DNA of 64,000 nucleotides from Clostridia bacterium (GTDB taxonomy: Bacteria; Bacillota; Clostridia; Christensenellales; Borkfalkiaceae). Shown here piece by piece: positions 40,781-51,753 of the stretch. Where the stretch lies: positions 62,001 through 126,000 of the forward strand of contig JAFWXO010000009.1 of the NCBI GenBank assembly GCA_017545865.1, read 5' to 3'. The notes beneath the pieces are model-generated. The model searched no databases, was not told the DNA's origin, and saw nothing but the letters and a program-made list of their open reading frames with translations. A program made the position numbers and the translations under genes. Every line of letters starts with the position of its first letter. Positions within the stretch are counted from its first letter, which is position 1.

Positions 40781-41155
40781 TTATGCCTTCCAAAGGCTAT
40801 GTAAGTTACAGTATGCGTATACTTCTAAAACGGCATCGTCATCGGTTAAAGCAAATTCAACGTACGGCTTGGAGTCGGGAGATAAAGCCTTGGTTTGAAC
40901 GCTCTTTTTGCAAACGAGAGTTACCCACTCGATAAAATGTTCTTGAGTCATGGGGTGTTCAACTGCGCCAACTTTAACGATTACTCTATTACCGCTAACG
41001 GTATAAACGGGAACGTGTTTTTCCTTGGATGCGTCAGTCGTGCCGGCGATAAGTTCTTCCATTTTAGCGCCGCAGCACATAGCGGGAACTTTGCTGTCTT
41101 TAACGACAGATAATATTTTGCCACAAGTTTTACAGATTAAGAATTTAGTTTCCAT
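40781..41155 (-). CDS. dfx: Desulfoferrodoxin (superoxide reductase, 2Fe type)
   Basis: 124 residues. Reduces superoxide to peroxide without making oxygen, an oxidative-stress defence of anaerobes. The N-terminal desulforedoxin domain has C8, C11 and C27-C28 as iron ligands. The catalytic domain has the His4Cys centre: KEKHVPVY, VEHPMTQEHFIEWV and YCNLHSLWKA. It overlaps the end of the nucleotidyltransferase gene by 11 bases, so it appears to be carried at the tail of the polysaccharide operon, with AAGGAG upstream. Confidence 0.95.
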   Translation of the reverse strand: METKFLICKTCGKILSVVKDSKVPAMCCGAKMEELIAGTTDASKEKHVPVYTVSGNRVIVKVGAVEHPMTQEHFIEWVTLVCKKSVQTKALSPDSKPYVEFALTDDDAVLEVYAYCNLHSLWKA

Positions 41156-41900
41156 TTTTATTCTCCTTTTTTATTCCTTTAAAATTTATTTTAACGTCTT
41201 CGTAACTAAGAAGATCGCCTATATCGTATCTTTTCCCGGGCATTTCCATAGCGAAAACTTTGCTTATATTGCAAAGCCAAGAAACAAAACTACCGGGCGC
41301 GTCAACACCGCAACCGTTTTTAATAGCGGTATCAATAAGCAAAGCGTCTTTACTTTTATAAAAGTAAAAGGGCGGGCAACACCAGTTGCTATTAGGTTTA
41401 AGCGGTTTTTCTTGCATTTCAAGCACTAAATCGCTATCGTTAATAGTTAAAACACCGCTTTTGCTTAGTTTTTGAACGTCACTTTCGTAATATCTCATTA
41501 CAGCCGACGAGCCCTTACTTTCCGCATAGTTTATAAAATCAACGAGTGAAAAATCTAAAACGTTATCGCCTGCAATCACCAAAATGTCATCTCTAATATT
41601 GAGCGTTTTTATTGCAAAATCAATATCTTTAACCGCGCCTAAGCGAGTTTCATTACTCGTTGTTCCGTCGCTAATCACGGTGATATTTTGGCTTTTAGTT
41701 TTAGCCCAAACTTCAAAGTGAGAAAAATATTTAGCGTTTGAAATAACAACGTATTCGTCAACTTTTTTGCTCGTATCAATATCGTCAACAAGCCAGTCAA
41801 GTATAGTTTTATCCTTTATTTTGAGTAGCGGTTTTGGGAAGTTTTCAGTTAGCGGATATAATCTCGTTGCATATCCCGCGCATAAGATTAAACATTTCAT
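41145..41900 (-). CDS. Sugar-phosphate nucleotidyltransferase (LicC/RfbA-like)
   Basis: 251 residues. N-terminal CLILCAGYATRLYPLT is the nucleotide-binding signature, FPKPLLKIKDKTILDWL holds the catalytic lysine region, and VIAGDNVLDF the metal-binding aspartate. It joins a sugar 1-phosphate (or phosphocholine) to a nucleotide. With the kinase gene just upstream it likely makes an activated sugar for the polysaccharide. The start ATG at 41900 overlaps the kinase stop as ATGA, so the two are translationally coupled. Longer reading from 41927 is less likely. Confidence 0.85.
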   Translation of the reverse strand: MKCLILCAGYATRLYPLTENFPKPLLKIKDKTILDWLVDDIDTSKKVDEYVVISNAKYFSHFEVWAKTKSQNITVISDGTTSNETRLGAVKDIDFAIKTLNIRDDILVIAGDNVLDFSLVDFINYAESKGSSAVMRYYESDVQKLSKSGVLTINDSDLVLEMQEKPLKPNSNWCCPPFYFYKSKDALLIDTAIKNGCGVDAPGSFVSWLCNISKVFAMEMPGKRYDIGDLLSYEDVKINFKGIKKENKNGN

Positions 41901-43078
41901 AAAGAAATACCATCCGCGCTCTCGCAAATATGAGCGGAAAATTTACCCTTAAACTCAGGATAAACTTTTAAATACTCTTCTTCCACTTTACTTAAAATCT
42001 CACTTTCAAGCAACGGGTCAATAAGCGCCATACAACAACCTTTAAACCCTGCTCCACTAAACCTACCGCCGTAAATACCGTTAGTGTTTTTCATAATATT
42101 ATATAAGGTTATAAGTTCAGGAGAGCCAACTTCGTAATTTTCAATAGAAGAAAGCCCACTTTCAAAGCAAAGTTTACCAAACTCTATTAAATCGCCTTTT
42201 TTAAATGCTTCAACGCCCTTTTCAACTCTAATTTCTTCGGTATAATAGTGCTCTGCGCGTTTTTGCCAACTGGTTGGCAGTTTATCTTTGTGTTTAAGAT
42301 AGATTTCATAAGGAACTTGGCGGAGATTAGTTTCTTTAAACTTGCCGTTTTCAACCCCTTCATACGCCTTTAAAGCGTATGCTGCGGAAACGCACTCGTC
42401 TTTTCGCAAGTTGTAATTACTTGCCGTAAGATTTCTTTCAAGCCCCGAGAAGAAAACCGCTATCTTAAAAGGTTTCATATTCTCGTTTTTTGCAATTAAC
42501 TCGTAGGTATCGTTAAGCGTGTCAAGATATAAAAGGCAGTCCTTTTTAGCATAAACTTCGGTGCTTTGGTCAAGTTTTCCCGTTGAAACGCCAACGTATT
42601 CGTTTTCCGCTCTCACGGCAAAACAAACGAGTTCCTTTTGGGAAATTTTAAGGTTGTTAACCTTGCAAAGCGCTTGCAAAAACGAAATTGTAACGGCAGC
42701 GGAAGAAGAAAGCCCACCTATAGGTAGCGTTCCTTCAATAACCCCGCAAACGCCAACGCTTAATCTATATTTTTCACTAAGAATTAAAGTTGCGCCACGA
42801 AGATAATCCGCCCAATCGCACTCTTTTTGTTTTGGCACGGCGTTAACGTGGAACTGAGCGCGTTTTTCAAACTGCATTGAAGTTAGTTCCACTACTCCGT
42901 TTTGCTTTGGCGCATAGGCGATTGAAACACCTTTATCTATAGCGATACCCAAAACTTTGCCGTGCTGGTGATCAACGTGCGCTCCCAACGGGCAAACCCT
43001 ATACGAGCAGTACGAAACGTCACTCGGCTCTTTTTTATAAATTTGTTTAAATAATTTAACGTTGTTCATTTTAATCAC
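41897..43078 (-). CDS. Galactokinase-like GHMP sugar kinase
   Basis: 393 residues. GHMP signatures: CPLGAHVDHQHGKVLGIA (galactokinase-like motif 1, with GAHVDHQ in place of GEHTDY), GGLSSSAAVTISFLQ (ATP loop) and FSGAGFKGCCMALID (motif 3). It phosphorylates a sugar at C1. The altered first motif suggests a substrate other than plain galactose. The GTG at 43078 overlaps the stop codon of the upstream fusion gene as GTGA. ATG at 43069 is the alternative. The pair kinase plus nucleotidyltransferase is a sugar-salvage route feeding the operon. Confidence 0.85.
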   Translation of the reverse strand: MIKMNNVKLFKQIYKKEPSDVSYCSYRVCPLGAHVDHQHGKVLGIAIDKGVSIAYAPKQNGVVELTSMQFEKRAQFHVNAVPKQKECDWADYLRGATLILSEKYRLSVGVCGVIEGTLPIGGLSSSAAVTISFLQALCKVNNLKISQKELVCFAVRAENEYVGVSTGKLDQSTEVYAKKDCLLYLDTLNDTYELIAKNENMKPFKIAVFFSGLERNLTASNYNLRKDECVSAAYALKAYEGVENGKFKETNLRQVPYEIYLKHKDKLPTSWQKRAEHYYTEEIRVEKGVEAFKKGDLIEFGKLCFESGLSSIENYEVGSPELITLYNIMKNTNGIYGGRFSGAGFKGCCMALIDPLLESEILSKVEEEYLKVYPEFKGKFSAHICESADGISL

Positions 43079-46000
43079 TTTTTAATAAATTTTTTAACCA
43101 TTTTTGCTAAATATAAGAAATTCTGCTCTTTTATCAATAAGCAAACGGCAGAATAAACAACAATTCCACAAAGAATTTGCAAAGTAAACGATAAATATAT
43201 ATTGATATTTAATATTCCTACCAAATATACAAATATTGCCATTATTAGCGTTGCAAGAAGTATTTTCCAAATCAATTTAAACTGTTTTAAAATTCCAAAA
43301 TTAAACAATTTTTTCATCGGAATTGAAATTATAATAACGTCAACCCACAAGCTAATTGCAAAGCCTATTACGATTGCCAAAACTGAATTAAAACAAAATA
43401 CCGAAAGCAATAAAATAACCATCATTGTAACACGCCTAATGACTTCCAGTTTCATATATATATCGCTTCTGCCAATTGCTTTAATTGCCGTTAAATTTGG
43501 CGTTGTTAAACTCTTGGTCATATATGCAATACAGAATATATAAACGTAGTCAACGGCTGGCAACCATTTTTCAGTTAATAAAATTACTACAAGCGGTTTT
43601 GCAACGATAGCAATTCCTATCATTATCGGGAAAATGATTAAACAACTGAGCGATAACGACCTTTCAAGCATAGCGATAAGGCGCTCTTTTTTATCTTGCT
43701 CTTTTGAAAAGACTGGAAACATTACAGACTGAATTGCAGATTCAGTAGTAGTTGATATTATCATCGGGAATTGCGCTCCCCTATTATAATAACCCAAATC
43801 ATCAGTCGAATATTTCTTACCAACAACTAACGACCTAACGTCATCGTAAAGAGAACAAAGAAGGCTAGAAACGAACATTTTCCAACCAAAACCCCACAAA
43901 ACTTTCGCTCTATCTTTTGAAAATTCAAATTTAGGCAACCACCTTGACGCGCAAAGCATAGTGAAACTTGATATTACGATATATGAGAAGTTATATACTA
44001 CTAACGCCCATATTCCATAACCAAGATAAGCGAAAACGATACCTAATATTCCAGACGCAATCGTAGCGAAAAGCCTTGCATACATAGAAGCCTTAAAACG
44101 CATTTCTCGTTGCAGTTTTGCCGTTTGAATAGAATTGAACGCGCCAAACAATAACGAAAGCGAATAAAATCTAAGCGGAGCAACTATTGCCGTTGAATTG
44201 TAAAATTTCCCTATAAAAGGTGCAGTTACGAATATAATTGCTACCATCGTTATGGAGAGCAATAAGTTGATATAAAACGCTGTAGAATAATCTTTCCTTG
44301 AAAGGTCTTTCGTTTGAATTAGCGCAGTACCGAAACCACTTTGAATAAGGCTTAAAGATAAATTTATAAATACAGCCATTATTGCGAGTTGGCCAAAGTT
44401 ATCTGGAGATAAAAGCCTTGCTAAGATTATGCTTATAATAAGCCCTAACCCCTTAACAGCCAACTGTTCAAAAAATTTAAAACTTAAAGACGAAACGATT
44501 TTTTTAGTATTGCTAGATTCTTCAGTTTTAACTTTGCTTATATCAATATTTTCGCCAAGTTTTAAATCTAAAGAGTTGGTTTTAAAGTCGATAAACGCAT
44601 CGCTTGAATATAAGTCAAATTTAGAAAATTTAATCTCATCGCCTACCAAACGCCACTCAACAATCAATATAGGCTTATCGCAAGATAATTTTTGCGAAAG
44701 ATCTAACATTTTTGAAAGATTGCTTGGCTTTGCAACGTTAAGATTATTATTCTTATTAACGTCTAAGCGTTTCCAACTAGTGTTATAATAACTAACCGAC
44801 CTATCACCATTAAAGTTATCACTTATCACCTGAATAACGTTAGGCTTTCCGTTCAAAAGAATAACTCTATACGAAACTAACTTGTTAGTTTTTTGTTCAT
44901 TTTCGTAAGCGTTTAAACTTTCAGCAATAATCTTCTTGTCAACGTTGTTATATAGCCAGTCCTTATTTGCTAAAGTTTTTTCTTTGTTAAGTAAATTCTT
45001 AAAATTTTCTTTAAAAGTTTTAACGTCTAACGCTAATTTATCGTTGCAAATAATATTAGCGCCGAAATTTGATTTTAAAACGAATTCGTTAGGAAGTGAG
45101 TCAAAATCAATATCTTCAACCCTATTCCAAACCCCAAGTTGCGTAGATAAATATTCTTCGCCTATTTTTTTAGCAACGTAATCTCTTGCTTTGCACTCGT
45201 CAACTAAAACCGTGTTAATTGTATCCCTATCGTAAATTTTAAGCCATTGAAGTTTTTCGTTATAAGTTTTAGGGTTTTTAAGGTTGAGTTTTTTATTAAA
45301 CCTTGCGCGATACGATAATTTGTAATACGTTTCCGCAGATATAAACCGACTTAACTTTGATTCTCCAAAAAACGAAAACCTTTCCTTAGGATTTTTAATC
45401 GCACCAAATATTGCAAATATCAAGTTTTTATATTTAGGCGGAGTTTCATTTTTATTAGAATAAAAATCATAATTGATACTAATAATTGAAGCCGCCAACA
45501 TTATAAGAGTTGTTCCCTCTGATAAAAATTGGTCGAATTGTATATCAACAAAAATTAGTATCATCGGCATAAAGTTTACAAGCGAAAACTTAACTCGCTT
45601 TAAAGCACTGCGTATGACGCAGAACATAAACACCGAAAACATTACTAAACCTGGCAAGCCCCAAGCAATTACGATTTGCTGCAATCCGTTGTGAGTAACG
45701 TATTCCACTTCTTTATATGCAGATAATAATTTTTGACCTATGTTTTGAAGCCCTATACCAAACATCGCGTTTTTAAACGATGAAAAAATTTGTTTAGTAT
45801 AATATATCAATAATTCGATTCTATGGTTAGAAATGTCTTCAACTTGGAAACGCTTTATAAAGTTTTCCACAACCGTAGGCATAACGATAAATACGAGTAA
45901 CACTATAAGCGCAAGTGCAACAACTGCAACTCCGCATCTTATTAATTTTCTCTTTATAGATGTTTTACCCGCAACTAAGAAAATTGCTACAAGCAAACTA

Positions 46001-46767
46001 AAACATAATAAGAACGCTCTTGATTGCGTCATTACACCGAAGAAAATTAAAATTATTAAACATAGAAAATCAATTACCTTAAATTTCTTCGTTAAAATTA
46101 GTTGCATTAGCCCTGCTATACCAAAGTTACAAATAAACCCTAGCATATTAGGATTAAAAGCCAAAGCATATTCTTGCGATGCTTGTTTATTCACACCAAA
46201 ACGAAAACCTTTAAGGAATATTTCTTTAAAATTAAAAGAGTGTTGGTCTAATTGCTCAAAAAGCATTATAAGCAATATGCCAATAGTTGCAAGAACGAAA
46301 ACTCTAACGATAAACGGATAATCAATATATTTGAGTGACGTTAAAACAACGAACGCACATAAAATCAACCCAAATAAATCTCTTAAATAAAAATATAAAG
46401 ACTCATTGTTAATTACTACGTGTAACCCTTCCCAAGCAATTAAAAATCCAAAAGAAAAAATTATCGGCAATTTAAACTCAAAATCTTTGTAAAACTTTAC
46501 AAAGTAAACCGCCATACAGATAAGTATACCAAATTTATACTGAAAGCCAACGGAAAGGGGGATACAGCATACTATTAAAGCAAAAAGTTCGTTCCTATCG
46601 CAAAGCATGGCAGAAACAAAAAATACCACTAAAAACATTGACGGAGGAAATTTGATATTTGAAAAATTGTTCAAGCAAATAATACCTAGTAGCGTTAATA
46701 TCACTAGATAGAAATATCCTTTTGTCAAAAGAGAATATTTTTTTGCATTTTCCTGTGTCTTGTCCAT
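43075..46767 (-). CDS. Fusion protein: Wzy-like polymerase, TupA-like ATP-grasp domain, Wzx-like flippase
   Basis: One uninterrupted 1,230-residue reading frame. Residues 1-440: about ten to twelve membrane helices with O-antigen polymerase/ligase features (GVMTQSRAFLLC, VTHNGLQQIVIAWGLPG). Residues 455-745: soluble, aligning with the separate TupA-like protein at 47906 (shared NPKTYNEKLQWLKxYDR and DIDFDSLPNEFVLK). Residues 750-1230: a polysaccharide flippase of the WzxC/MOP type (ARLLSPDNFGQLAIMAVFIN, QTAKLQREMRFKASMYARL). The middle domain has lost the metal-binding end seen in the separate copy (GEMTFFHWSGF is replaced by SKFDLYSSDAF), so it may be inactive. It would combine export and polymerisation of the repeat unit in one protein. 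Confidence 0.85.
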   Translation of the reverse strand: MDKTQENAKKYSLLTKGYFYLVILTLLGIICLNNFSNIKFPPSMFLVVFFVSAMLCDRNELFALIVCCIPLSVGFQYKFGILICMAVYFVKFYKDFEFKLPIIFSFGFLIAWEGLHVVINNESLYFYLRDLFGLILCAFVVLTSLKYIDYPFIVRVFVLATIGILLIMLFEQLDQHSFNFKEIFLKGFRFGVNKQASQEYALAFNPNMLGFICNFGIAGLMQLILTKKFKVIDFLCLIILIFFGVMTQSRAFLLCFSLLVAIFLVAGKTSIKRKLIRCGVAVVALALIVLLVFIVMPTVVENFIKRFQVEDISNHRIELLIYYTKQIFSSFKNAMFGIGLQNIGQKLLSAYKEVEYVTHNGLQQIVIAWGLPGLVMFSVFMFCVIRSALKRVKFSLVNFMPMILIFVDIQFDQFLSEGTTLIMLAASIISINYDFYSNKNETPPKYKNLIFAIFGAIKNPKERFSFFGESKLSRFISAETYYKLSYRARFNKKLNLKNPKTYNEKLQWLKIYDRDTINTVLVDECKARDYVAKKIGEEYLSTQLGVWNRVEDIDFDSLPNEFVLKSNFGANIICNDKLALDVKTFKENFKNLLNKEKTLANKDWLYNNVDKKIIAESLNAYENEQKTNKLVSYRVILLNGKPNVIQVISDNFNGDRSVSYYNTSWKRLDVNKNNNLNVAKPSNLSKMLDLSQKLSCDKPILIVEWRLVGDEIKFSKFDLYSSDAFIDFKTNSLDLKLGENIDISKVKTEESSNTKKIVSSLSFKFFEQLAVKGLGLIISIILARLLSPDNFGQLAIMAVFINLSLSLIQSGFGTALIQTKDLSRKDYSTAFYINLLLSITMVAIIFVTAPFIGKFYNSTAIVAPLRFYSLSLLFGAFNSIQTAKLQREMRFKASMYARLFATIASGILGIVFAYLGYGIWALVVYNFSYIVISSFTMLCASRWLPKFEFSKDRAKVLWGFGWKMFVSSLLCSLYDDVRSLVVGKKYSTDDLGYYNRGAQFPMIISTTTESAIQSVMFPVFSKEQDKKERLIAMLERSLSLSCLIIFPIMIGIAIVAKPLVVILLTEKWLPAVDYVYIFCIAYMTKSLTTPNLTAIKAIGRSDIYMKLEVIRRVTMMVILLLSVFCFNSVLAIVIGFAISLWVDVIIISIPMKKLFNFGILKQFKLIWKILLATLIMAIFVYLVGILNINIYLSFTLQILCGIVVYSAVCLLIKEQNFLYLAKMVKKFIKK

Positions 46768-46790: not shown

Positions 46791-47873
46791 TTACCTATTC
46801 ACAATTTTAGATATAAAATCAAAATATTGTTCGGCAATATTGTCAATACTGTTAGTTTGAAGAATCTTCTTTGCGTTCAACGAACATTTTTGAGAAAATT
46901 CTTTATCCGAAATCATTTTAATAATTGCGTTTGCAAGCGAAGTTGCATCTTTAACGGGAACTAACAGCCCGTTAACTCCATCTTCAATTAACTCCTTAGG
47001 CCCAAACGGACAATCTGTTGAAACGCAAGGAATCCCAACCGCCATTGCTTCCATTAAAGCATTTGGCATACCTTCGAAAATTGAACTTAGGACAAAACAA
47101 GAAGAATCTGAGATTTTAACAATAGCATCTTCTCTTGCACCCATAAACTTAACGTTATCTTCAACACCTAATTCACGAGAATAGTCCATAATCACTTGTT
47201 TATACGGTCCGTCACCATAAATTTCCAAAATAAAATCGGGGTAACGTTCTAAAACTATCTTGAACGCCGTTAACAACGTAACGTGGTCTTTTTCTTTAGA
47301 AAGTCTTCCCATCGTTGATATAACCATGCGCCTATTTGGACTTTCCGACACTTGATAAACGTATGGATTTCCAACCGCATTTTGAATTACAACACCTTTG
47401 TCAGCGATTTCTTTGGGGAAACAGTTTTTTGCCCTTTCTGTTTGGAAGATTATCCCGTCACTACACTTTAATATTTTATTTTTTTCTTTATTTCTTTTAG
47501 CATCAATTGTATAATTTGGGTTTGACCGCTCAGAACAAATCAATTTAAATTTTTTGTTTCGTTTTGGTAAAAATCTTGCACTCATTGCCATCATGCAAAA
47601 TACAACGTCAGGCTTATGTTTTCTTAAATAATTTCTAACTTTTATAAATCTAAAAAAAGAGTTCCTAATTTTTTGAAAACTTGAATTGCAATTTGAGGGT
47701 ATTCCGAATTTAACTAATTCTACGTTTTCATCTAACGAATAAAAAGAGTCGCTTCCAAGGGATAAAACCGTCACGTCCGCATCTTTTTTGTTAGATATAT
47801 AATTTGATAGATAAGCAACAGTTCTTTCAGCTCCACCACTGCCAAAATTCGAAACTAAAAATACTATCTTCAT
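46791..47873 (-). CDS. Glycosyltransferase family 4
   Basis: 360 residues, GT-B fold. N-terminal acceptor domain (VSNFGSGGAERTVAYLS) and C-terminal donor domain with STMGRLSKEKDHVTLL, SSIFEGMPNALMEAMAVGIP (E-x7-E motif) and STDCPFGPKELI. Cytoplasmic, adds a sugar from a nucleotide donor to the lipid-linked repeat unit. Close in sequence to the GT4 at 48854 (both have the phrase EGMPNALMEAMAVG), so the two are probably duplicates with different specificity. Confidence 0.92.
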   Translation of the reverse strand: MKIVFLVSNFGSGGAERTVAYLSNYISNKKDADVTVLSLGSDSFYSLDENVELVKFGIPSNCNSSFQKIRNSFFRFIKVRNYLRKHKPDVVFCMMAMSARFLPKRNKKFKLICSERSNPNYTIDAKRNKEKNKILKCSDGIIFQTERAKNCFPKEIADKGVVIQNAVGNPYVYQVSESPNRRMVISTMGRLSKEKDHVTLLTAFKIVLERYPDFILEIYGDGPYKQVIMDYSRELGVEDNVKFMGAREDAIVKISDSSCFVLSSIFEGMPNALMEAMAVGIPCVSTDCPFGPKELIEDGVNGLLVPVKDATSLANAIIKMISDKEFSQKCSLNAKKILQTNSIDNIAEQYFDFISKIVNR

Positions 47874-48853: not shown

Positions 48854-49915
48854 TTAACAATTAAACAAATAATCTTCCCACCGTTTAAAAACGCTAGTAG
48901 GATAAAACTCTTTTGCCTTTTCTTTTGCGTTAACTGAAATTTCCCCCATGCGCTTTTCATCTCTATAGAATTCAAGCATAGTAGTTGCCAAGCAATCAAT
49001 ATCCCCAGTTGGAACTAAAATACCGCCGTCACCGTCAAAAAGTTCTCTTGGCCCACCACACGGGCAATCGGTTGAAATACAAGGAAGCCCAACTGCCATT
49101 GCTTCCATTAAAGCGTTTGGCATACCCTCGTAATCGGAAGATAAAACGAACATTTTTGCCTGTGATAACACACGAGGAACGTCACTAGTTAAACCTGGCA
49201 ATTTTACCCTTTCTTCAAGATTTAAAGATTTTATTAAACCTTCAAGTTCAGCCCTTTGATTGCCTTCGCCGTATATAACCAAGTTGCCGTCAACTTTATC
49301 ACAAATTTTACTAAATGCCTTTATTAATACGTCGTGGCGTTTTTGAGGAACAAGCCTTCCAACGGTAATTATATCTTTCGCATCTTCAATCTTTTGAACG
49401 TCAAAAAACTTTTTATCAACTTGATTAAAAATAACTCTTGATTTATCTTGAATTTTTTTAGGAAACCACGCCTTAGCGTCTTCCGTTTGGAAAATCACCC
49501 CGTCCGCGCGCTTAAAAAGCCTTTTCGCTAAAAACCTAAACAAGAAATTTCCATACTCTCTATTCGGGTCGTTTCTAACGGATAAAAAGACTTTGGCTTT
49601 TAATCTCCTACTTGCAATTATAGTTCTAAAATTAGGCTCTGCCATAAAGGAAACTATAACGTCGGGATTTTCCGCTTTCATAGTCTTTCTCAATCCCTTT
49701 ACAAGGCGAAGATTTCTCTTTAAAGCGCCTTTAATATAACTATCAAACAAGGAAACTCTTTTAACCGTATCTAATAGCACGTATTCCTTTTCACTTTTAA
49801 ACGAAGTAACTAAAATCACTTCGTTACCAGCAACGGAGAACTCGTTTGCAAGGTTTGTTATAACTCTTTCAGCACCACCGTGATGAATAGAGTTTATGTA
49901 AAACATAATTTTCAT
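48854..49915 (-). CDS. Glycosyltransferase family 4
   Basis: 353 residues, GT-B fold. INSIHHGGAERVITNLANEF at the N-terminus, then ITVGRLVPQKRHDVLIKAFS, SSDYEGMPNALMEAMAVGLP and STDCPCGGPRELF in the donor domain. Paralogue of 46791-47873. Probably the third sugar transferase in the pathway order. It ends and starts within a few bases of its neighbours and shares the operon promoter at 51809. Confidence 0.92.
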   Translation of the reverse strand: MKIMFYINSIHHGGAERVITNLANEFSVAGNEVILVTSFKSEKEYVLLDTVKRVSLFDSYIKGALKRNLRLVKGLRKTMKAENPDVIVSFMAEPNFRTIIASRRLKAKVFLSVRNDPNREYGNFLFRFLAKRLFKRADGVIFQTEDAKAWFPKKIQDKSRVIFNQVDKKFFDVQKIEDAKDIITVGRLVPQKRHDVLIKAFSKICDKVDGNLVIYGEGNQRAELEGLIKSLNLEERVKLPGLTSDVPRVLSQAKMFVLSSDYEGMPNALMEAMAVGLPCISTDCPCGGPRELFDGDGGILVPTGDIDCLATTMLEFYRDEKRMGEISVNAKEKAKEFYPTSVFKRWEDYLFNC

Positions 49916-49919
49916 AATT

Positions 49920-51020
49920 TTACTTTAATATCTCAAAATAGAAATTTGTAATTTTATTTGCGGTGTATTTAATATCAAATCCACGCTTTTCAATTTCGCT
50001 AACAACGTCTAACCTTTCAGCGTTAAAATTAACTAAACTGTCAACCCACGCTTTTTTGTCGTCAACGGAAAGTCTTTTAACCAAACTAGTCAAATCAACG
50101 TCCTTGGTAACTCTATCCGACATAAAACACGTAAGCCCCGAAACTTGCGCCTCTACTATCGCAACGGGTAAACCTTCCCATAAGGACGGGAAAGCAAAAA
50201 CGTCCATCGCGTTATAAAGTTTATCAAGGTCATCTCTAGAGCCGAGTAATATTACCGAAGAAGATATCTTAAGTTCTTTAATTTTGCTTTCAATTTGCTC
50301 TCTTAACTCACCGTCACCAGCAAGAAGTAACACGGCGTTTTTTCTTACCTTTAAAACTTCACTAAACACTTCAAGTAAGAATAAGTGGTTTTTAGGCTCG
50401 CGAAAATTTCCAGCGTGGCCTATAACGAACTTATCTTCAACACCGAGTTTTGCGCGATAATCTTTTCTAATTTCTTCGTTAAAAACGTATGAAGAAACGT
50501 CGATTGCATTTGGTAAGAATATATAATTAGCCTTTTTGCAAGCCTTTTCGCCGTAAAGCCATTTCCCAGCCTCAGTTGAACAAGCCATTAAGTAATCTGC
50601 TTTTCGCCTAAGTGGGCGCTGCAATATTTTTTTAATGATTGCAGTTATGCCCTTTCCGTTTGAAGTAGAGTGACTGTGAATAATAGTTTTAACTCCAAAC
50701 TTTTTAGCAATAGAAATGTAAATCGATGCGTAACTTCTAACGTGTGAGTGAAGTATTTTATATTCTGGGTGGTCTTTAAAAAACTTGCGCCACGCTTTTT
50801 TTACCTTGAAAACGTTGAAACCTTTGAGTTTAGGCAAAACGAAAACCTTAGCGCCCATTTCTTCAACCATTTCTTTATAGCGAATTTGATTTGGCTCGTC
50901 AATGATAAAGTCAAACTGAATTTTTTCTCTATCTACGTTTTTATATAAATTTAAAACTACCGATTGTGAACCACCAACGTTAAGTCCGCCAATCATATGT
51001 AAAACTCTTAATTTTTCCAT
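49920..51020 (-). CDS. Glycosyltransferase family 4 (more distant member)
   Basis: 366 residues. Starts LHMIGGLNVGGSQSVVLNLY; donor domain has IGHAGNFREPKNHLFLLEVF, PSLWEGLPVAIVEAQVSGLT and a short C-terminal helix. The pattern resembles the EpsF-like GT4 group that acts early in exopolysaccharide assembly. It is the second gene of the operon, after the phosphoglycosyl transferase, so it likely adds the second sugar. Confidence 0.92.
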   Translation of the reverse strand: MEKLRVLHMIGGLNVGGSQSVVLNLYKNVDREKIQFDFIIDEPNQIRYKEMVEEMGAKVFVLPKLKGFNVFKVKKAWRKFFKDHPEYKILHSHVRSYASIYISIAKKFGVKTIIHSHSTSNGKGITAIIKKILQRPLRRKADYLMACSTEAGKWLYGEKACKKANYIFLPNAIDVSSYVFNEEIRKDYRAKLGVEDKFVIGHAGNFREPKNHLFLLEVFSEVLKVRKNAVLLLAGDGELREQIESKIKELKISSSVILLGSRDDLDKLYNAMDVFAFPSLWEGLPVAIVEAQVSGLTCFMSDRVTKDVDLTSLVKRLSVDDKKAWVDSLVNFNAERLDVVSEIEKRGFDIKYTANKITNFYFEILK

Positions 51021-51120: not shown

Positions 51121-51753
51121 TTAGCCATTTTCTTCTTCCACCTTTTCCGTTTTTAATTCAACTTTATCGCCTTCAACAACACCGTCCCTCTTGAGAACTT
51201 TAAAGACAGTGCCGAATAAACATTTGATATCAAACCATAAACTTATCTTTTCAGCGTATTCGCCGTCGTATTTTGCTTTCACAACGTAACCAAGCTCATC
51301 ACGCCCGTTGATCTGCGCCCAACCGCTAATGCCGGGGCGGAGAGCGTTCGCTCCGTACTTGTCCCTTTCTTCAATCAAATCAACTTCTTCAAGTATTACA
51401 GGGCGTGGACCTATAAAGGACATTTGCCCTACGAAAATATTGAATAATTGAGGCAATTCATCAAGCGAGGTTTTGCGTAAAAATTTACCAAGCTTCGTAA
51501 TGTATTTATCAGAATTTACAAGCCCGTAAGTGGGAACGCTTTTAGGCGCTTCAACACTCATCGACCTAAACTTTAAAATATTAAAGGGCTTTTTGTTTCT
51601 ACCATAACGCTTTTGCTTGAAAAACACAGGACCGCGACTATCTATCTTAATTGCTATAGCAATTATTAAGAAAAAAGGTAAAAATGCAAAAATTGCAATA
51701 AATGAAAAGAGTATATCAAAAACCCTTTTAAAAAAACTTTTGTAAATCTTCAT
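51121..51753 (-). CDS. Monotopic phosphoglycosyl transferase (initiating sugar transferase)
   Basis: 210 residues, short form with one re-entrant membrane helix (FDILFSFIAIFAFLPFFLII). Family motifs: GPVFFKQKRYGRNKKPFNI, KLGKFLRKTSLDELPQLFNI (catalytic DE), MSFIGPRPVI and ALRPGISGWAQINGRDEL. It transfers a sugar 1-phosphate to undecaprenyl phosphate to start the repeat unit. First gene of the operon. Confidence 0.94.
   Translation of the reverse strand: MKIYKSFFKRVFDILFSFIAIFAFLPFFLIIAIAIKIDSRGPVFFKQKRYGRNKKPFNILKFRSMSVEAPKSVPTYGLVNSDKYITKLGKFLRKTSLDELPQLFNIFVGQMSFIGPRPVILEEVDLIEERDKYGANALRPGISGWAQINGRDELGYVVKAKYDGEYAEKISLWFDIKCLFGTVFKVLKRDGVVEGDKVELKTEKVEEENG

Follow-up and report, generated by a model that had tools for sequence, protein, structure and literature searches.

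Here we describe a gene from a Clostridia bacterium in which three polysaccharide functions, a Wzy-like polymerase, a TupA-like ATP-grasp domain and a Wzx-like flippase, are joined in a single protein. The gene lies in the 64,000-nucleotide stretch of DNA analysed here, hereafter the window. The three-part form was found in one draft genome (33 contigs, 1.59 Mb, completeness 94.85, contamination 4.41%), and it is probably an unusual fusion, derived within its genus and held together by a pseudoenzyme linker. The overall explanation that we favour, with somewhat better than even confidence, is a two-step merger of neighbouring operon genes that yielded a polymerase-flippase chain with a dead linker. 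To our knowledge, it is an open question whether Wzx and Wzy work together as a single assembly.

A single ATG-started frame of 1,230 codons, preceded by AAAGGAG, fills the interval of the fused gene exactly (Table 1). The local G+C content is ~33%, and by our estimate a chance frame of this length at that composition is out of the question. Three Pfam domains follow one another along the protein, each above its cut-off: Wzy_C (PF04932) at aa 236-377 (44.9 bits, cut-off 31.7), ATPgrasp_TupA (PF14305) at aa 504-741 (107.5 bits, cut-off 25) and Polysacc_synt_3 at aa 781-1072 (296.2 bits, cut-off 23). The frame and the scores together confirm the sequence-only reading, which had placed three polysaccharide parts in this order in one frame and had named these three families. 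The Wzx part also matches Polysacc_synt (125 bits, cut-off 28.2), and three NCBIfam Wzx-type models match it below their cut-offs. Although the Wzy_C family covers both O-antigen polymerases and ligases, which are not told apart for this protein, the Wzy part is predicted to be a polymerase of lipid-linked repeat units. A PDB sequence search with the whole fused protein returned a single match at E 0.63, and no related locus was confirmed when viral contigs were scanned with the Wzy part and with the Wzx part.

Simple hydropathy analysis gave 13 membrane segments up to aa 432, a soluble stretch of 336 residues, and 10 segments from aa 769. Flippases of the Wzx type, members of the MOP superfamily, have 12-14 membrane helices and an N-inside topology; the same simple method found 10 segments in the Wzx part of the window and 12 in the separate Wzx of a congener described below. 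Lysine/arginine-rich stretches lie at aa 270-277, at aa 384-391 and from aa 433 on. Together with the topology of MOP flippases, these stretches plausibly place both inner ends, the C-terminal side of Wzy and the N-terminal side of Wzx, in the cytoplasm. Structure prediction, also proposed in the sequence-only reading, was informative for the middle domain, where it recovered an ATP-grasp fold, but the full-length AlphaFold2 model was unusable (mean pLDDT 44.5), so the topology rests on hydropathy and on general knowledge of these proteins.

Table 1. Features of the fused gene and its operon; positions are those of the window.
Feature	Position	Strand	Basis
Whole fused gene, Wzy-TupA-Wzx, 1,230 aa	43075..46767	-	Open frame and Pfam
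Wzy part, aa 1-440, 13 membrane segments	45448..46767	-	Pfam, hydropathy, alignment
TupA-like ATP-grasp domain, aa 504-741, predicted catalytically dead	44545..45258	-	Pfam, alignment, model, Foldseek
Last two strands of the ATP-grasp model, aa 702-718; R, D, Y, E, T replaced by I702, E704, R706, K716, D718	44614..44664	-	Alignment and model
TupA/Wzx junction, aa 739-768; stop, ribosome site and ATG of G005 absent	44464..44553	-	Sequence comparison with G005
7-A run on the coding strand at the junction	44499..44505	-	The gene has three runs of this kind
Wzx flippase part, aa 752-1230	43078..44514	-	Pfam; 66% identity to separate G005 Wzx
Bac_transf sugar transferase, probable priming enzyme	51121..51753	-	Pfam
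Glycosyltransferase (Glyco_trans_1_4)	49920..51020	-	Pfam
Glycosyltransferase (Glycos_transf_1)	48854..49915	-	Pfam
Separate TupA-like ATP-grasp protein, 309 aa	47906..48835	-	Pfam, alignment
Glycosyltransferase (Glycos_transf_1)	46791..47873	-	Pfam
Galactokinase-like GHMP kinase, next downstream of the fused gene; 66% identical in G005, same place	41897..43078	-	Pfam
Nucleotidyltransferase; 67% identical in G005, same place	41145..41927	-	Pfam

The surroundings of the gene fit a Wzx/Wzy-dependent polysaccharide operon, in that both a priming-type sugar transferase and glycosyltransferases were found upstream. On the same strand, the 5' side holds the Bac_transf gene, three glycosyltransferase genes and a separate tupA-like gene, and the 3' side a kinase and a nucleotidyltransferase gene, as assigned by Pfam. 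The kinase and nucleotidyltransferase pair (41145-43078) is conserved behind the flippase in the congener as well and hints at a salvaged or unusual activated sugar. The separate TupA belongs to the 24 stand-alone proteins that define the invariant columns discussed below and hence has all 17 of these residues; a PDB sequence search with it gave no match. It probably serves the operon as its active amide ligase. Amide formation at C6 of glucuronic acid, reported for the TupA-like ATP-grasp domain of Campylobacter jejuni Cj1438 (PMC11800379), suggests what its job would be. Cj1438 likewise has this domain fused to a second polysaccharide enzyme, but there the domain is active, the partner is a GT2 glycosyltransferase, and the passages on the protein mention no membrane parts (PMC11800379).

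The origin of the fusion is illuminated by a congener, the metagenome-assembled genome Clostridiales bacterium SIG397 (SVHZ01000007.1; G005), in which the locus reads sugar transferase and glycosyltransferases, TupA, Wzy-TupA, Wzx, kinase and nucleotidyltransferase. At the same place in the operon, G005 encodes Wzy-TupA as a single protein of 760 residues, 50% identical to the window protein over aa 1-751, and Wzx comes next; unlike in the window, this Wzx is a gene of its own with an ATG and a ribosome site. In another member of the family, G031, wzy, tupA and wzx keep this order as separate genes, with others interspersed. G323 has wzy and tupA as two separate frames, with a 35-base overlap when the first ATG is taken, and its third gene matches nothing in Pfam at 0.01. 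Relatives with separate genes at this place, which the sequence-only reading had expected to speak against the fusion, thus exist in part, as two genes in G005 and three in G031; what they indicate is that the fusion is derived, not that it is false.

Across the family, TupA was matched 27 times in 21 of 301 genomes. Twenty-four of the matches lie in stand-alone frames (289-332 aa), another two in the fusions of G005 (frame of 761) and the window (frame of 1,233), and the remaining one, in G021, is weak, partial and below the cut-off. Of 9 genomes in the genus, 2 (counting that of the window) have Wzy-TupA, and 1 has Wzx joined to it as well. In a tree of 26 TupA sequences, the two fused copies form one clade with support of 97/98, which fits a single origin of the Wzy-TupA fusion, and the three-part form looks like the product of a stepwise and recent process. 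A scan of genomic contigs with the Wzy part, using two peptide patterns of small reach, gave 63 pattern stretches and one confirmed locus, that of G005. Elsewhere, five long frames containing TupA were read by eye (G533 twice, G694, G466 and G537), with the weak matches in G599 (428 aa) and G721 (406 aa) left aside, and none carried a Wzy part. Two of the long frames appear by eye to have the TupA-like domain behind a CapA-like domain (L077 in G533 and L078 in G694). Also, three TupA-like genes lie within ~5 kb of each other at L072 (G149:C9:18224-22955).

The middle domain has probably lost its enzymatic activity and is to be filed as a relative of the TupA family, not as an active ligase. 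In an alignment of the 24 stand-alone proteins and the two fused copies, from which the weak G021 row was dropped, the fused copy of G005 keeps 17 of the 17 columns that are invariant in all stand-alone proteins, whereas the window copy keeps 9, having lost K to E524, E to D603, K to R634, R to I702, D to E704, Y to R706, E to K716 and T to D718. A wider set of 52 columns, each conserved in 20 or more of the 24 stand-alone proteins, tells the same two copies apart, with 47 kept in G005 and 30 in the window. When these columns were divided, the window copy was found to keep 9 of the 22 polar positions (20 in G005) and 21 of the other 30 (27 in G005); polar columns have been lost more than others, and the active side would therefore be decaying more than the fold. 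The fused domain also stands out in its rate, with an end branch of 1.45 in the window and 0.41 in G005, 3.5 times longer, as compared with 0.35 and 0.24 for the separate TupA proteins of the two genomes. The contrast in rate is tempered by the Wzy part, which is also about twofold faster than in G005, so that the acceleration of TupA is not fully set apart, and the tree program warned of an unusual letter make-up in the window copy. The loss of invariant residues and the long branch are our grounds for considering the domain probably dead.

A model of the middle domain, built from 4 sequences (model residue n corresponds to aa n+440), had a pLDDT of 75.3 and a pTM of 0.73. Foldseek searches with this model placed ATP-grasp enzymes on top, with 96 matches at E up to 0.001; the top PDB matches were D-Ala ligase, RimK and LysX/ArgX, and TM-scores by query length were modest, at 0.28-0.45 among the matches listed. 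The last five of the invariant-residue losses map to the last two strands of the model. Conserved acidic or polar residues on the corresponding strands of ATP-grasp enzymes have been described for another ATP-grasp subfamily (PMC2824669). The sequence-only reading had offered the central domain as either a scaffold or a modifying enzyme; with 9 of 17 invariant residues retained, we reject the latter, and the scaffold survives. That the domain might still be an active ligase with altered chemistry strikes us as very improbable: the ATP-grasp fold is predicted to persist and the conserved residues on the N-terminal side are still present, but none of R, D, Y, E and T survives on the last two strands, E having changed to K at 716, and the polar columns have been thinned far below the 20 of 22 kept in G005.

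If the middle domain has decayed, the whole gene might be decaying with it while another Wzy/Wzx pair serves the operon. PF04932 and PF13440 each have three listed matches in the genome, with the fused gene presumably among them, and the Wzy part has evolved about twice as fast as in G005, with end branches of 0.61 and 0.30 in an alignment and tree of 22 rows (the window, G005 and 20 others taken from the best listed Wzy_C matches in the family), some of which are long. We nevertheless consider general decay improbable. The 1,230 codons have stayed open at their low G+C content, and the end branches of the Wzx part, 0.27 in the window and 0.24 for the separate copy of G005, are nearly equal in a tree of six rows, four further loci not having been recovered. 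Furthermore, nine columns do not vary among the 20 other Wzy proteins; the Wzy part retains eight of them (N207, S249, R250, R316, G337, G339, H359 and G370), and at the remaining one, position 334, both the window and G005 have A in place of P. The Wzx rate and the retained Wzy columns argue that both membrane parts remain under constraint.

The junction of TupA and Wzx raises two further alternatives. In G005, Wzy-TupA ends with TAA and the ATG of Wzx follows one base further in another frame, behind AAAGGT; in the window this stop, ribosome site and ATG are missing and the frames agree. Of the two sites that the sequence-only reading had suspected of frameshifts, the one at 45,400 (Wzy/TupA) is open in G005 too, but the one at 44,500 (TupA/Wzx) is not. 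An assembly or sequencing error might therefore have joined by an indel what are truly two genes as in G005, since a run of seven A residues sits exactly at the junction and the three-part form is known from one genome. When the run was set to 6 or 8 by script, the TupA frame ended at 760 or 763 aa, near the 760 of G005, and with 8 A the Wzx frame contains a TAA and, after it, an in-frame CTG near the position of the G005 ATG. CTG rarely serves as a start codon, and one indel restores the G005 layout only if Wzx used it. In the assembled sequence, the start region of the Wzx part has no in-frame ATG, GTG or TTG before TTG769, which borders the first Wzx membrane segment, and the same is true with 6 or 8 A. 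With the ribosome site of G005 gone as well, an error needs either the CTG start or a second error, and A/T runs of seven or more are common (55 in the 64-kb window), so we regard this alternative as unlikely. Slightly less likely still is that the frame is fused and Wzx is nonetheless also or mainly made as a separate product, through internal initiation at TTG769 or a rare start, slippage on the A run or proteolysis. TTG769 stands at the beginning of the first Wzx membrane segment and the run could slip, but no ribosome site was seen by inspection ahead of TTG769, and two further runs of seven A within the gene mean that the junction run is not special. Slippage as a designed switch is likewise unsupported, given three such runs.

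It is not uncommon in the family for Wzy or Wzx to be fused to a neighbour; the examples given here are among the matches listed, with G186 (914, stops inside) and mid-length frames such as G291 left out. The closest parallels are two proteins from another genus of the family, in G018 (893 aa; L082:1968-4646) and G035 (874 aa; L010:286-2907), in which a polymerase-like part is followed by a flippase in one frame, as in the window, but with no TupA between and with a Wzx that matches best with Polysacc_synt rather than Polysacc_synt_3. The two are 60% identical over 878 columns, linker included, and such a frame was found in 2 of the 3 searched genomes of that genus, the third being 79% complete. 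Pfam made no Wzy call for their N-terminal part, which is probably Wzy-like judging from its ~31% identity to proteins encoded nearby in each genome; one of these neighbours has a Wzy_C hit below the cut-off (E 0.002) and the other none, and the weak PF04932 matches of the two genomes may be those neighbours. Two other candidates for Wzy-Wzx fusions, G961 and G866, were rejected when their long frames proved to be separate neighbouring genes.

At least six family members combine Wzy with a C-terminal enzyme in one frame, as found in six listed Wzy_C matches with frames of 881-936 aa; unlike in the window, the partner is a glycosyltransferase, GT28-like in G137, G220, G205 and G244 and GT4-like in G240 and G066 (L066, L067, L068, L069, L070, L071), and there is no Wzx. 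Wzx is joined in one frame to a C-terminal GNAT acetyltransferase in G031 (L003:1510-3429), G215 (L086) and G190 (L087), to Acyl_transf_3 in G237 (L083:2101-4584, by Pfam) and G314 (L084, by likeness), and to DUF1295 in G313 (L085). By eye, other Wzx frames run into RmlC/RmlD-like or LicD-like sequence (L097 in G728, L098 in G818 and L099 in G903). We found no description of a natural Wzx-Wzy fusion in open-access full text (cf. PMC12004945, PMC11340318), which is weak evidence of absence.

Under the two-step merger that we favour, wzy would first have joined a copy of tupA, the step recorded in the same two-part protein of G005 and in the supported clade of fused TupA domains; the window lineage would then have lost the stop and start that separated tupA from wzx, both absent from the assembled sequence. 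The product would carry polymerase and flippase on one chain, with a cytoplasmic ATP-grasp domain stripped of catalytic residues as a folded linker. As judged from the families, the operon glycosyltransferases would build a lipid-linked repeat unit, the separate TupA would probably amidate a uronic acid on it, and the Wzx part would flip the unit for polymerisation at the outer face by the Wzy part of the same molecule. The benefit may lie in a one-to-one stoichiometry and in the closeness of flippase and polymerase, and coupled flipping and polymerisation, as the sequence-only reading had supposed, is plausible. More tentatively, the protein could be a covalent flippase-polymerase machine in which units flipped by Wzx pass straight to its own Wzy, while the dead ATP-grasp domain still binds the unit or docks the active TupA, so that only correctly amidated units are flipped; we put this forward as a speculative possibility.

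The middle domain would be an enzyme retained as a fold after loss of its active site, next to a congener form that still has all invariant residues. Taken with the fusion of G018 and G035, the joining of flippase and polymerase would, if true, be a recurrent solution in this family. A natural single-chain flippase-polymerase, together with a second that is common to two other species, would make the question of Wzx-Wzy assembly directly testable through the link between the two.
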